Shown here: positions 51,984 to 57,476 of the stretch, in pieces
Position numbering within the stretch: the first letter of the stretch is position 1
Layout: every line of letters begins with the position of its first letter
DNA from: Methanotrichaceae archaeon
GTDB lineage: Archaea > Halobacteriota > Methanosarcinia > Methanotrichales > Methanotrichaceae
Direction of reading: 5' to 3'
NCBI GenBank assembly: GCA_013178225.1
Contig: JABLXE010000003.1
Coordinates: forward strand, 1 to 64,000
DNA length: 64,000 nt
The notes under the pieces: generated by a model
Told to the model about the DNA's origin: nothing
The model's database searches: none
What the model saw: the letters and a program-made list of their open reading frames with translations, nothing else
Position numbers and translations under genes: made by a program

Positions 51984-53120
51984 TCAGGCCACCTTTCTGG
52001 CCGTTGAGCGGCCGTTCGTCCTGGCCTTAGCTCTATCCAGCGACTCGGCCACGAGGTCGACCACGTCGATTACTTCCATCTTTCCCTTTGCCGCGTCGCT
52101 GAGGTTTCTGATGCACAGTGGGCAGGAGGTGACAATACAGTTCACGCCCTCCGGCACATCCTCTAGCCTCTTTTCGGCCAGGGAGAGCGAGAGGTCCTTG
52201 TAGCCTGCCCTGACGCCGCCACCGCCTCCGCAGCAGCGGGCCAGATCTCGGCTGGCCTTCATCTCCTGCAGCTCGCAGATGGCCTCGATGATCTTTCGCG
52301 GCGGATCGAAGATCCCGTTGCACCGTCCCAGATGACAGGGGTCGTGATAGGTGACCGTCTTCGAAAGGGGATACAGCTCCAGCTCGGAGATTCTGTCGGC
52401 CAGGAACTCTGAGACGTTCAACACTTGAAAGTCTGCAGAGTAATTATTCTTGAGGGTGGTGTAGCAGCCGGCGCAGCTGGTGACAACAGTGTTGGCCCCC
52501 ATCATCTCTATCTGCCTGAGGTTGGAGTTCATCGACTCTCCGGCATCAAAGCCCATGCGGAGAAGGGGAGAGCCGCAGCATTTCTCATCCGGCAGCAGTG
52601 AGACGCCGAAGCGCCTCAGCAGGTCTGCGGTCCTGGCAGCGGTCTCCGGATAGCGGTACGACATGAGACAGCCCACGAAAAAGACGCAATCGGCCTTCTC
52701 CTTGATCAGAGATCGGTCCCTGAGAAAGGCCAGCCGGGAAGAAGCCTCGCCGAAGGTGTTTCCGGTGGCAAAGACCCGGTCTCTGATAGAGGCCTGCTCT
52801 TTGGAGACGAATCCTGCTAAGACCAGGCCGCTCCTGGCTCGTTCGATCAGCAGAGGGGGATTGACCCCCGCCGGACAGATCTCCTTACACCTGCCGCAAG
52901 TGGTGCAGGTAAAGAGGCTCTCCTGGGCGGCCTCATCAGGCCGGCCGCTTTTCATGAGACCTTTGATCACCAGGATGCGGCCCCGAGCCCCGGAAGATTC
53001 CCATCCCTGCTCGGCCATCACCGGACAGACGGAGCGGCAGGTCCCGCACCGCGCGCATCTATCCAGCAACCTCGGATCGAGATCACTGAAGTCCTGAGTT
53101 ATGCTAAAACCGGTACCCAT
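51984..53120 (-). CDS. GlcF/HdrD-like Fe-S oxidoreductase subunit
   Basis: A 378-residue protein. Two N-terminal [4Fe-4S] motifs: CARCGTCRSVCPV and CTTCGRCKEICPAG. Two CCG domains follow: VGCLMSYRYPET...DEKCCGSPLLRMG and DPCHLGRCNG...ARCCGGGGGVRAGY, each a potential site for a non-cubane or [4Fe-4S] cluster as in HdrB/GlpC/GlcF. It passes electrons from the FAD subunit encoded upstream to an unknown acceptor, perhaps a membrane carrier. ATG 53120 has AGAGGAGA upstream and lies seven bases after the glcD stop, so the pair is an operon. Confidence 0.9.
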   Translation of the reverse strand: MGTGFSITQDFSDLDPRLLDRCARCGTCRSVCPVMAEQGWESSGARGRILVIKGLMKSGRPDEAAQESLFTCTTCGRCKEICPAGVNPPLLIERARSGLVLAGFVSKEQASIRDRVFATGNTFGEASSRLAFLRDRSLIKEKADCVFFVGCLMSYRYPETAARTADLLRRFGVSLLPDEKCCGSPLLRMGFDAGESMNSNLRQIEMMGANTVVTSCAGCYTTLKNNYSADFQVLNVSEFLADRISELELYPLSKTVTYHDPCHLGRCNGIFDPPRKIIEAICELQEMKASRDLARCCGGGGGVRAGYKDLSLSLAEKRLEDVPEGVNCIVTSCPLCIRNLSDAAKGKMEVIDVVDLVAESLDRAKARTNGRSTARKVA

Positions 53121-53127
53121 TTCTCCT

Positions 53128-54501
53128 CTATAGCCCCAGCTTTCCGGGATTCAAGATGCCTTTCTCGTCCAGGGCTTTCTTAACGGCCCTCATGACCGTC
53201 AGGGATTCGCCCACCTGGTCCTTCATGTACTGCGCCCTGGCCAGGCCGATGCCGTGCTCAGAACTCACGGTTCCCCCAAGCTCCAGAGCGGCCCTGTGAA
53301 TTGAGTCTGCGGCCTGCAGGGCCTTTTGCCGGTCTTCCGGGTCGCACGGGTCGATGAACAGGGCCACGTGGAGGTTGCCATCCCCTATGTGGCCGTACTT
53401 CATGGCCGGCAGGCCGAGCTTGTTGACGATTCCCTGGACTTTCCTGAGAAGTTCAGGAATCTCCCGGATGGGAACGCCCACGTCTTCGCCCACGTAGATA
53501 CGGCTCTTGTTGGGGTCAAGGCGGGAGATGGCAGCTCCAACCAGCCTCCGCGCCGCCCACAGATGATCCATCTCGTCTTTGCTGCCGGCAATATCGATCC
53601 TGGTGGCCCGCGGCCTGCATACCCCGGCAATCTGGCGGGCGGATTCAAGCGTTGAGCTCTCCGTCCCGTCCACCTCGAAGAGGATGACGTCACCACGATC
53701 CGGAAGCTTCAGGCCGGGATCGCAGCGCTTCAAGACCTGAAGGGTGATATGGTCCAGAATCTCGCATGCCGAAGGCGTGATTCCAGCTGAAAAGACCTCC
53801 TGCACCGCCCGTCCAGCAGTTTCGGCATCCGGAAATGCGGCCAGCACCAGCTTCCTTGACCGAGGGACCGGGACCACCCTCAGCCCCGCCCTGGTGATCA
53901 CCCCCAGAGTTCCTTCCGCGCCCACAAAGAGCCTGGTCAGGTCGTATCCGGCAGAGGACTTCAGCACCCTGGAGCCGGTGTTTATGATCCGTCCATCAGC
54001 CAGGACCACAGTCAGATCCAGGACGTACTGCCTGGTGGTGCCGTATTTCACGCTGCGCATGCCGCTCGCGTTGTTCGAGATCATGCCGCCGATGGTGCAC
54101 ATGGCCGAGCTTCCGGGATCAGGCGGAAAGAAAAATCCATGTGAGGAAAGCCTGCGGTTCAGCTCTTCATGGACCACTCCGGGCTCGACTATGACCTGGA
54201 GATTGGGAAGGTCCATCTCCAGGATTCTGTTCATCCCTGACATGTCCAGGACCACGCCTCCCCGAACCGGCGATGCCCCTCCGGACAGCCCGGTGCCGGC
54301 TCCACGTGCCGTGACGAAAACCTCCATTTCGTGACACAATCTGAGTATCCTGGAGACTTCCTGAGTGCTGCCCGGACGAACCACGTAGTCCGGAAGGCCC
54401 TCGACCTGAGAGGCATCAGTGGCATAGCAAAGCCTTTCGCTGTACGAGGCTCTCGCCCTGGTGCCGGCAATATCCTGCAAGTCCTTTAGAATATCCTTCA
54501 T
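53128..54501 (-). CDS. GlcD-like FAD-binding 2-hydroxyacid dehydrogenase subunit
   Basis: A 457-residue FAD oxidoreductase of the glycolate/D-lactate dehydrogenase family. The PCMH FAD-binding domain has YVVRPGSTQEVSRILRLC, ARGAGTGLSGGASPV, FPPDPGSSAMCTIGGMISNNASG and GAEGTLGVIT. The C-terminal domain has KYGHIGDGNLHVALF and GTVSSEHGIG. It oxidises a 2-hydroxyacid, most likely D-lactate or glycolate, with the partner Fe-S subunit downstream. I chose ATG 54501 for typical length; the frame is open to ATG 54621 but the extra 40 residues are basic and not family-like. A LarA-family gene lies 8.4 kb away (62897). Confidence 0.88.
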   Translation of the reverse strand: MKDILKDLQDIAGTRARASYSERLCYATDASQVEGLPDYVVRPGSTQEVSRILRLCHEMEVFVTARGAGTGLSGGASPVRGGVVLDMSGMNRILEMDLPNLQVIVEPGVVHEELNRRLSSHGFFFPPDPGSSAMCTIGGMISNNASGMRSVKYGTTRQYVLDLTVVLADGRIINTGSRVLKSSAGYDLTRLFVGAEGTLGVITRAGLRVVPVPRSRKLVLAAFPDAETAGRAVQEVFSAGITPSACEILDHITLQVLKRCDPGLKLPDRGDVILFEVDGTESSTLESARQIAGVCRPRATRIDIAGSKDEMDHLWAARRLVGAAISRLDPNKSRIYVGEDVGVPIREIPELLRKVQGIVNKLGLPAMKYGHIGDGNLHVALFIDPCDPEDRQKALQAADSIHRAALELGGTVSSEHGIGLARAQYMKDQVGESLTVMRAVKKALDEKGILNPGKLGL

Positions 54502-54709
54502 GGTCTGGCTGTTGAAATTGAGTTTTAACCGTTGAGGGCTCCTGACTGATAAAATCTTCCTCTCCCGGCCGAAGGCCCCTGGCAGAGGCCGGGAATAGCG
54601 GTCATATGACGGTTCGAACATTGATTGCGCTCAAAGGTTCACGACCGGCAACCGATTTAGAATACTATTAATATCAACGGTGCAGATTTCGAGGGCATTG
54701 GTCTTGAAG

Positions 54710-55363
54710 ATGAAGGCAGTTCTGATTCTTTCCGGAGGAGTGGACTCCACCACTCTGCTCTACAAGATGCTGGCCGATGGCTATGAGGTGACAGCTCTCA
54801 CCTTCAATTACGCTCAGCGCCACAAGAAGGAGATCGAATGCGCATCCAGGATCGCCGGTCTCCTGAATGTCCCCCATCAGGTGGTGGACCTGAGCGGTAT
54901 CGCGGGCCTGCTGGGAGACAGCGCCCTTCTGGGGAAAAAAGAGGTTCCACGGTGCCACTACACCGAAGATGCGGCCAGGCAGACTGTGGTTCCCAACCGC
55001 AATATGATCATGCTCTCCATCGCTGCCGGCTTTGCCGAGGCGCAGGAAGTGCCGGAGGTGTTCTATGCCGCCCACCGAAACGACTCCACCATCTATCCCG
55101 ATTGCCGTCCGGAGTTCGTGGAGGCCCTGCGGCCGGCCATCAGAATGGGGACGGCCTGGCATCCGGTGGAGCTGAAGGCTCCCTTCCTGGACCTCAGCAA
55201 GGCGGAGATCGTGAAGCTGGGACTAGGGCTTGGAGTGCCGTATGAGCTCACCTGGTCCTGCTACCGGGGAGAAGCACAGCCCTGCCTGGAGTGCCCGACC
55301 TGCATAGAGCGGATGGAAGCCTTTACGCTGAACAATGCAATCGATCCTCTGCTCGGGCGCTAA
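54710..55363 (+). CDS. queC: 7-cyano-7-deazaguanine synthase QueC
   Basis: A 217-residue ATP-dependent enzyme converting 7-carboxy-7-deazaguanine to preQ0, the precursor of archaeosine in tRNA. The PP-loop is LILSGGVDSTTLLYK; YAQRHKKEIECA, VPNRNMIMLSIAAGFAE and DCRPEFVEALRPAIRMGT are family core. The C-terminal zinc site is SCYRGEAQPCLECPTCIER. ATG 54710 starts just before the PP-loop; a GTG at 54680 would add ten residues. It is divergent from glcD. Confidence 0.95.
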   Translation: MKAVLILSGGVDSTTLLYKMLADGYEVTALTFNYAQRHKKEIECASRIAGLLNVPHQVVDLSGIAGLLGDSALLGKKEVPRCHYTEDAARQTVVPNRNMIMLSIAAGFAEAQEVPEVFYAAHRNDSTIYPDCRPEFVEALRPAIRMGTAWHPVELKAPFLDLSKAEIVKLGLGLGVPYELTWSCYRGEAQPCLECPTCIERMEAFTLNNAIDPLLGR

Positions 55364-55465
55364 AACCGGAATCTGAGAATCGGGCTTCATGGATTGTTGA
55401 TAAGGCCACGGCCGGCTTGGCGGCAATACAGCAAAATTTAATAATTTTTAGGCTGACTATTGATC

Positions 55466-56284
55466 ATGAATCTGGCCCGCCCGCTCACCGATAAGGAATA
55501 TGCAGAGTGCTTTGACGCCTTTAAGCAGGTCTCTTCAGAATGGATGGCCATGCAAGACTGGCTGGAGAAAGAGTTCCTCCCGCACCTGTCTGAAAGTGAG
55601 TCCAGCAAAGCACTTTCGGTGCTCTCAATCGGCAGCGGAACCGGAGATTTCGATCTGGCACTGATGCGAATCCTGCTGGAAAAGATTCACCAATTATCCT
55701 ATGTCGCTGTGGACCCCAATCCGGAGCACAACCGCATTTTTTGCCAGCGCTACATGAATTGCGGCTTGAAACTTGACTCCTTTGAGGTCATCCCTCATCC
55801 CTTCGGCCAGGACCACCTCCATGGTGGGTTCGACCTGATCCACCTCACCCACTGCCTGTACTATATTCCCGACCGCCGGGACTCCATCGCCCGGGCCTAC
55901 AGGATGCTGAATCAGGGCGGATTTCTGCTGATATTTCATCAGACCACCCTGGGCATAAATGAGATCCAGAGGGCCTACTTGAAATTGGTCAAAGGTGATG
56001 CGAAGGAGATGTTCTCTGCCCACGACATTTCCGTCATATTCGACGAGCTGGGCCTCAGGTTCAACTACGACGTTCTGATATCGGATATCGACGTCACAGA
56101 ATGCATAAAAGACACGGAGGTAGGAAGGAAAATCCTGAACTTCTTTTTGGAGTCCGATCAGAACGGGATCGATCCCTCTCTTAAGGCGGATATCATCGCC
56201 ACCATGAAGGAAATCTGCAGGCATGAGAACGGCAGGTACTATCTCTTTCATCCCTGCGGGATATTCTGGATCAGGAAAGGCTGA
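55466..56284 (+). CDS. SAM-dependent methyltransferase resembling histamine N-methyltransferase
   Basis: A 272-residue class I methyltransferase. The SAM motif is VLSIGSGTGDFDLALM and the acidic strand end is YVAVDPNPEHN. Post-motifs FDLIHLTHCLYYIPD, GFLLIFHQTT and a C-terminal YDVLISDIDVTECI..VGRKILNFFLE follow the order and wording of animal histamine N-methyltransferase rather than ordinary archaeal methyltransferases. The N-terminus also fits (YAECFDAFKQVSSEWMAMQDWLEKE). ATG 55466 is preferred over TTG 55460. The substrate is unknown; small amines or imidazoles are conceivable. It follows queC by about 100 bases. Confidence 0.75.
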   Translation: MNLARPLTDKEYAECFDAFKQVSSEWMAMQDWLEKEFLPHLSESESSKALSVLSIGSGTGDFDLALMRILLEKIHQLSYVAVDPNPEHNRIFCQRYMNCGLKLDSFEVIPHPFGQDHLHGGFDLIHLTHCLYYIPDRRDSIARAYRMLNQGGFLLIFHQTTLGINEIQRAYLKLVKGDAKEMFSAHDISVIFDELGLRFNYDVLISDIDVTECIKDTEVGRKILNFFLESDQNGIDPSLKADIIATMKEICRHENGRYYLFHPCGIFWIRKG

Positions 56285-56333: not shown

Positions 56334-57476
56334 TCACTCTTCCTCTTGCAGCTCATTTTTATTGAAATGGCTGGCAGTCCTGTATATCGCCAAAGCGGTG
56401 CCGTATATCAATGGTCCGATAATTATTCCCGCTGCACCAAGTACCAAGATCGGTGCCACATAGGACAGAAATTCGATGACGACATTGACCTTCGAGCTAT
56501 CCCTGGCCAGGTAAGGCCTCAGTAAGTTCTCAGGCACGTACTCCAGGAGAGCTATTCCGAAGAGCAACACCAGAAATCCTCTCGAAAGGTCGTTCGTCAG
56601 GAAGAAATAGAGCGATAAAGGCACGAACACGATCCACGGACCGATGAATCGAATCAGAGAGGCGAAAGCCGCCAGCAGTGCCCAGATGATGGCCAGAGGC
56701 ATGCCGATCAGGGAAAAAATCGTCATCCCCACCAGGGCATTGTAGGCAGCTATATCGAAATTCGTTGTGAAGAGCCTCTTAAGGATTCCATTCAGCTCTT
56801 TTAGGAAGTGGCGTACGACCGTTCTTTGCTGCCCTGGAAATACATCCGGAAAGCCTTCTGCGGCTCCCTTTCCGGTCAAGAGGAGATAATAAGCCAGGAA
56901 GGCTGCCACGATCGTCTGGGCAATTAACACCGGCAGTATCAAGGCGAAATTCAGGATGCTGAACTGAAGCGCCGGAAAGATCCAGGCATCGACCGCCCTT
57001 TGGACTACGGCAGGGATTACAAACGAGGCTGCAAAGGGGATAATTTCTTCCGGGATCGCCGGTCTGACTTCCATGGCGCCGGGTATCCCGGCGGACACCG
57101 GGCTAAAGCTCAGATTCTGCCAGAAATAGGCATCGCTATAGTAGGCATCGCTGAGATCGGCTGCCCGGCCGGCGGACTGGTTGGCAGATTGAACCGCGAT
57201 CTCGGAAAGGCCGTAAAAACCCAGTGAGACCGATCTGTAGAAGACCAGGATTATCAAGATGGCCGCGAGAAAGATGGTTGATACTGCCAGCAGCGAGGCG
57301 GTCCTTTGGGACCTGACCCTGCCGAGGATGGTCCCATAAACGGGAGACAGCATATAGGCCAGCAGTACGCCTAAGATAACTGTATCTATGAAGAATCTGC
57401 TGATGTAAGCGGCAATTAATAAAATAGTGATAATAAAAATTGAAGCAAAGATCTTAGGTCCACTGCCGGAGGACAT
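56334..57476 (-). CDS. AI-2E family membrane protein, copy 2
   Basis: A 380-residue paralog of the protein at 28596, with the family's layout: N-terminal segments (FASIFIITILLIAAYISRFFIDTVILGVLLAYMLSPVYG), a soluble middle part, and the C-terminal block (YNALVGMTIFSLIGMPLAIIWALLAAFASLIRFIGPWIVF). Compared with copy 1 it carries a longer extracytoplasmic loop (~residues 90-150). The substrate is unknown. It is convergent with the methyltransferase. Confidence 0.8.
   Translation of the reverse strand: MSSGSGPKIFASIFIITILLIAAYISRFFIDTVILGVLLAYMLSPVYGTILGRVRSQRTASLLAVSTIFLAAILIILVFYRSVSLGFYGLSEIAVQSANQSAGRAADLSDAYYSDAYFWQNLSFSPVSAGIPGAMEVRPAIPEEIIPFAASFVIPAVVQRAVDAWIFPALQFSILNFALILPVLIAQTIVAAFLAYYLLLTGKGAAEGFPDVFPGQQRTVVRHFLKELNGILKRLFTTNFDIAAYNALVGMTIFSLIGMPLAIIWALLAAFASLIRFIGPWIVFVPLSLYFFLTNDLSRGFLVLLFGIALLEYVPENLLRPYLARDSSKVNVVIEFLSYVAPILVLGAAGIIIGPLIYGTALAIYRTASHFNKNELQEEE

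Follow-up and report, generated by a model that had tools for sequence, protein, structure and literature searches.

Within the window, by which we mean the whole 64,000-nucleotide stretch of Methanotrichaceae DNA that was analysed, there is an intact open reading frame for a protein that resembles histamine N-methyltransferase (HNMT) (Table 1). An in-frame TTG is present two codons 5' of its ATG. The queC gene ends 103 bases upstream, and the AI-2E transporter gene on the other side is convergent with the methyltransferase gene; with these flanks, no partner from the same pathway is evident at the locus. An AT-rich, TATA-like stretch upstream of the ATG suggests, as read from the letters, that the gene could have its own promoter. 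(Note that a consensus site overlaps this stretch, the number of such sites being not above chance.) The genome to which the window belongs (2.98 Mb in 28 contigs, 99.8% complete) carries mcrA, and a relative of the gene lies in a Methanothrix MAG; its host is thus a methanogen that belongs to Methanothrix or stands close to it. Base composition gave no sign of horizontal transfer, the window copy (GC 51.6, GC3 69.6) being no outlier among the neighbouring genes. Elsewhere in the window (51984-54621, - strand) is an adjacent pair resembling the glycolate oxidase subunits GlcD and GlcF, an FAD-linked oxidase and an Fe-S/CCG protein, here in a methanogen.

Table 1 Features of the methyltransferase gene and its flanks, in window coordinates
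Feature	Position	Strand	Basis or remark
queC	54680..55363		Pfam QueC
AT-rich TATA-like stretch (TTTAATAAT), 21-29 bases upstream of ATG	55437..55445	+	Sequence reading
Gene for HNMT-like SAM-dependent methyltransferase, 272 aa (ATG 55466, stop 56284)	55466..56284	+	ORF, PDB search, reciprocal best hit
Putative N-terminal helical cap (residues 1-45)	55466..55600	+	Alignment of the five archaeal copies and human HNMT
SAM-binding motif I, VLSIGSGTGDFDL (residues 52-64)	55619..55657	+	Pfam matches, invariant glycines
FDLIHLTHCLYYIPD (residues 122-136)	55829..55873	+	Alignment; His129 for HNMT Gln143, Tyr132/Tyr133 = Tyr146/Tyr147
IDVTEC region (residues 208-213), aligned to HNMT MDISDC	56087..56104	+	Alignments
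C-terminal LFHPCGIFWI (residues 260-269)	56243..56272	+	Alignments
AI-2E transporter gene	56334..57476		Convergent with methyltransferase gene

Kinship with histamine N-methyltransferase

When the window protein was compared with all PDB chains using phmmer, HNMT ranked first (E 1.7e-12, residues 11-245), and the next protein matched at E 7e-5 over the core alone. The closest relative of the window protein, that of genome G033 (66% identical), matched HNMT at E 1e-17. A four-sequence profile gave HNMT at E 2e-26 and the runner-up, juvenile hormone acid O-methyltransferase, at 6e-10; with an archaeal-only profile the values were 2e-19 and 1e-9, respectively. In the reverse direction, human HNMT (residues 14-292, verified against PDB 1jqe) found the window ORF as its sole match in the whole genome (E 1.5e-11, 24% identity), and found no other protein in the PDB at E 0.01. 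Moreover, Foldseek placed five HNMT entries on top (best E 2.5e-13, TM about 0.52), ahead of the next family at E 4e-9, with a low-confidence AlphaFold model built on an alignment of two sequences (mean pLDDT 55). A nine-row tree that included HNMT, a Calothrix protein and two outgroup rows had very long branches and was unusable. By sequence, profile and reciprocal searches, full-length similarity to HNMT exceeds that to any other solved methyltransferase. It is therefore well supported, with fold ranking added to these searches, that HNMT is the nearest solved family and that the window protein is its homologue. The sequence-only reading, which had proposed an archaeal HNMT homologue, is borne out on this point, and the profile search that it had named as able to overturn the proposal did not place the best match in an unrelated family.

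With human HNMT (PDB 1jqd/1jqe) the protein has in common its length, a predicted N-terminal helical cap, motif I, an xxLYYxxD motif and the IDVTEC region. The glycines of motif I are invariant across the five intact archaeal copies and HNMT, and the class I SAM-binding motifs are represented by the GSGTGDFD loop and by Asp83, which stands at the position of HNMT Glu89. In the cap, for which the low-confidence model has helices at residues 9-22 and 24-43, Tyr12, Phe16 and Glu25 are aligned to HNMT Tyr15, Phe19 and Glu28. At the C-terminus, by contrast, archaeal copies have LFHPxxIFWI where human HNMT has LFNNTLSFIVI; in the window protein this archaeal signature, LFHPCGIFWI, takes the place of the HNMT strand bearing Asn283. 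The two proteins also differ in that the archaeal host is an anaerobic methanogen. All three motifs singled out in the earlier reading were found (IGSGTGDFDL at residues 55-64, FDLIHLTHCLYYIPD at 122-136 and IDVTEC at 208-213), but its description of a likeness to HNMT "motif by motif" was overstated, as the two proteins are 20% identical across 261 aligned residues and differ in half of the substrate pocket.

A pocket partly retained and partly rebuilt

We compared twelve pocket positions in an alignment of human HNMT, the five intact archaeal proteins and one cyanobacterial protein. Five of these, Tyr15, Tyr146, Val173, Trp183 and Phe190, we take to be HNMT pocket positions. The others are Glu28, Gln143, Asn283, Phe19, Phe243 and Tyr147 (PMC9867436), and Cys196, which is given together with Tyr147 (PMC3660329). 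HNMT Tyr15, Phe19, Glu28, Tyr146, Tyr147 and Phe243 are retained in all five archaeal copies, as Tyr12, Phe16, Glu25, Tyr132, Tyr133 and Phe226 in window numbering, so that 6 of 12 pocket positions are kept against an overall identity of 20% (binomial p 0.02). In the same five copies Gln143 is replaced by His129, Val173 by Gln159, Phe190 by Val175, Cys196 by Lys180 and Asn283 by Pro263, whereas Trp183 corresponds to Gln168 in the window protein and to Arg in G427. (Note that, the model being poor, these equivalences come from sequence alignment, in which the region of HNMT 173-196 and the C-terminus are placed with less certainty.) Across the archaeal copies the replacements vary little or not at all, which argues for a fixed, different substrate more than for decay.

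HNMT proper (EC 2.1.1.8) would be expected to conserve the histamine pocket, of which six positions are changed here. Given this pocket, histamine is an unlikely substrate of the archaeal protein, and the label histamine methyltransferase is unsupported. The earlier claim of an HNMT-type methyltransferase in a methanogen holds; that the protein does HNMT's own job is not supported. A substrate switch of this kind has precedent in a chicken HNMT-like protein, a paralogue inside the HNMT family whose changed pocket residues accompany a changed substrate: it is a carnosine N-methyltransferase and does not methylate histamine (PMC3660329). At 49% identity to chicken HNMT (PMC3660329), that protein is far closer to HNMT than the archaeal one is, and it carries changes of its own: Arg for Tyr147, a residue that the archaeal proteins retain, and Gly for Cys196.

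Distribution and state of the gene

Five intact archaeal copies were found in two methanogen families, in the window genome, G033, G427, G201 and G566. A profile search of the window's own family gave matches in 6 of 50 genomes and none in 44, and the copies of the window genome, G033 and G427 are intact. In G428 a deletion or frameshift disrupts the N-terminal part of the gene, in G034 the gene lies in two pieces on separate contigs and lacks an internal stretch, and G421 has a fragment at a contig end. Broken copies are present in at least three relatives. (Several of the genomes with broken copies are draft MAGs, and some breaks are possibly assembly errors.) In the order to which G201 belongs, true members were found in 2 of 232 genomes, G201 and G566, whose proteins are about 54% identical to that of the window; an even sample of the phylum yielded the methyltransferase in 2 of 393 genomes, and a close-relative scan of genome contigs yielded one locus, in a Methanothrix MAG (L002). 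Where intact copies could be paired (window-G033 and G201-G566), pN was 0.22-0.23 against a pS of about 0.71, indicating strong purifying selection.

No conserved neighbourhood was seen: the flanks differ among the window genome, G033, G201 and G566, and a locus is common only to G427 and G428. The loci of both G033 (L012) and G035 (L013) have the same neighbouring ORF of 98-102 codons (MGPRILKIGEKVSGRYRDMEMG...) and encode a large secreted protein of repetitive sequence. G033 has an intact copy between these flanks and G035 a 33-codon C-terminal remnant, a pair that captures the loss of the gene at a single locus. The methyltransferase gene is rare, repeatedly broken and without conserved neighbours, and is under purifying selection where intact; it therefore appears to be an accessory gene, and its sporadic occurrence and repeated breakage make a conserved ancestral archaeal function doubtful. 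Horizontal spread and heavy loss fit the patchy distribution equally well.

Outside archaea, the sole full-length relative in the collections searched was a Calothrix NIES-4105 plasmid protein (BAZ65008.1; 27% identity, E 1e-21), which itself matches HNMT at E 8e-12. No other protein in the plasmid collections covers the query, a match in Azospirillum being partial and weak, and the phage and viral collections held no relative. The Calothrix protein shares with the archaeal ones the standing of a prokaryotic HNMT relative and the His in place of Gln143, but it differs from them at the Glu28 position, which is Lys, and has no counterpart of the archaeal C-terminal signature. Two weak matches from the order of G201 were considered as members and rejected as a separate methyltransferase group. 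This second methanogen group (L030:1369-2286 and L031:1375-2193) is 22% identical to the window protein and has a similar N-terminal stretch, RYxxAFxVLERYSEEYP.

Proposed function and alternative explanations

The analysis shows the family, the intact frame, purifying selection, the pocket differences and the patchy distribution. We think it somewhat probable that this HNMT-related methyltransferase, with its rebuilt pocket, N-methylates a small molecule, cationic or heteroaromatic and distinct from histamine, in an accessory role. The enzyme belongs to class I of the SAM-dependent methyltransferases (seven-strand Rossmann) and would be soluble, with SAM held by the GSGTGDFD loop and Asp83; the N-terminal helical cap and C-terminal strands would close over a small pocket. 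That pocket would keep an acidic residue, Glu25, and the aromatic set Tyr12, Phe16, Tyr132, Tyr133 and Phe226, which under the cap could hold the substrate; its polar rim would differ, with His129, Gln159, Gln168 and Lys180, and with His262-Pro263 replacing Asn283. One methyl group would then pass from SAM to a nitrogen of the small molecule, as an accessory, niche-specific function. We infer the nitrogen as methylated atom, the small amine or imidazole as substrate and the accessory role alike; for the amine or osmolyte guessed at in the sequence-only reading, the retained Glu28 equivalent and aromatic residues are what suggest that the substrate may be of such a type.

The methylated atom could instead be oxygen, as the family ranking second in the profile searches is that of juvenile hormone acid O-methyltransferase, and class I methyltransferase families readily change nucleophile. 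It is nevertheless rather unlikely that the protein methylates an O or C atom in a small carboxylate or aromatic compound and is kin to HNMT by shared fold ancestry alone, given that the E-value of HNMT is lower by some ten orders of magnitude or more and that the Glu28 equivalent, fit for a cation, is the same in all archaeal copies.

A genuine HNMT, inactivating histamine from amino-acid-decarboxylating neighbours or from the cell itself, would agree with HNMT being the nearest family and with the retained equivalents of Glu28, Tyr146, Tyr147, Phe19 and Phe243. We regard it as improbable, because the equivalents of Gln143, Trp183, Phe190, Cys196 and Asn283 are changed in every archaeal copy and the genome has no evident source of histamine. 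In a search run without a positive control, the Pfam model for pyruvoyl histidine decarboxylase had no match in the genome. Two PLP group II decarboxylases are encoded there, of which one is the tyrosine decarboxylase MfnA, below the histidine decarboxylase cut-off (119 versus 305 bits), and the other (579 aa) falls far below every NCBIfam equivalog cut-off.

The chance is slight that the protein is a generic methyltransferase that matches HNMT through the SAM-binding core alone. Pfam gave only generic SAM methyltransferase families (Methyltransf_23/12/11/25, above cut-off), and the window protein had only generic SAM methyltransferase matches in NCBIfam and reached no equivalog cut-off; yet the HNMT alignment spans the N-terminal cap and the IDVTEC region, HNMT outscores every other solved methyltransferase, the HNMT query retrieves the window gene alone from the genome, and a generic methyltransferase of a related methanogen (L031), taken as a control, gives no detectable match to HNMT.

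That the protein makes the 1-N-methylhistidine of methyl-coenzyme M reductase (MCR) is scarcely credible: HNMT methylates an imidazole ring, and as of a 2020 review the exact enzyme for the MCR methylhistidine had not been found (PMC7581889), but HNMT substrates are small molecules, and G035 has mcrA yet only the broken remnant. Since this modification is common to methanogens and methanotrophic archaea (ANME) (PMC7581889), its enzyme would be expected across methanogens, and a gene that is intact in just five genomes, without a match in 44 of 50 family genomes and absent from nearly all methanogens sampled, is a poor fit.

Most discussion of HNMT treats it as an animal enzyme that inactivates monoamines. 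A 2023 study traces HNMT to the common ancestor of cnidarians and bilaterians and cites Iyer et al. (2004), who reportedly considered the enzyme in connection with gene transfer from bacteria to animals (PMC10244343). For cyanobacteria, HNMT-like annotations are already in print, as for WelM3 of the welwitindolinone clusters (PMC4236562), a prokaryotic protein that is HNMT-like by annotation; the literature searched, with incomplete coverage, held no archaeal member of the family. The methanogen relatives, with a pocket part kept and part rebuilt, offer a sequence set for tracing the origin and specificity of animal HNMT. More tentatively, and with some doubt, they may form an archaeal HNMT branch whose substrate in methanogens is a small metabolite of the imidazole or amine kind, as yet unrecognised; such a branch, if real, would show the family and its amine chemistry outside animals. 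For the biology of methanogens the consequences are probably minor, because the gene is rare and dispensable.

A link between the methyltransferase and the second PLP group II decarboxylase was rejected by co-occurrence, as only two (window genome and G427) of the six family genomes with that decarboxylase have both. SABATH carboxyl methyltransferases are best known from plants. In the window genome, a methyltransferase of this type (Pfam Methyltransf_7, E 7e-11) adjoins the 579-aa decarboxylase (G000 contig C28, about 50.3-53.4 kb; L019:3290-6396, - strand).
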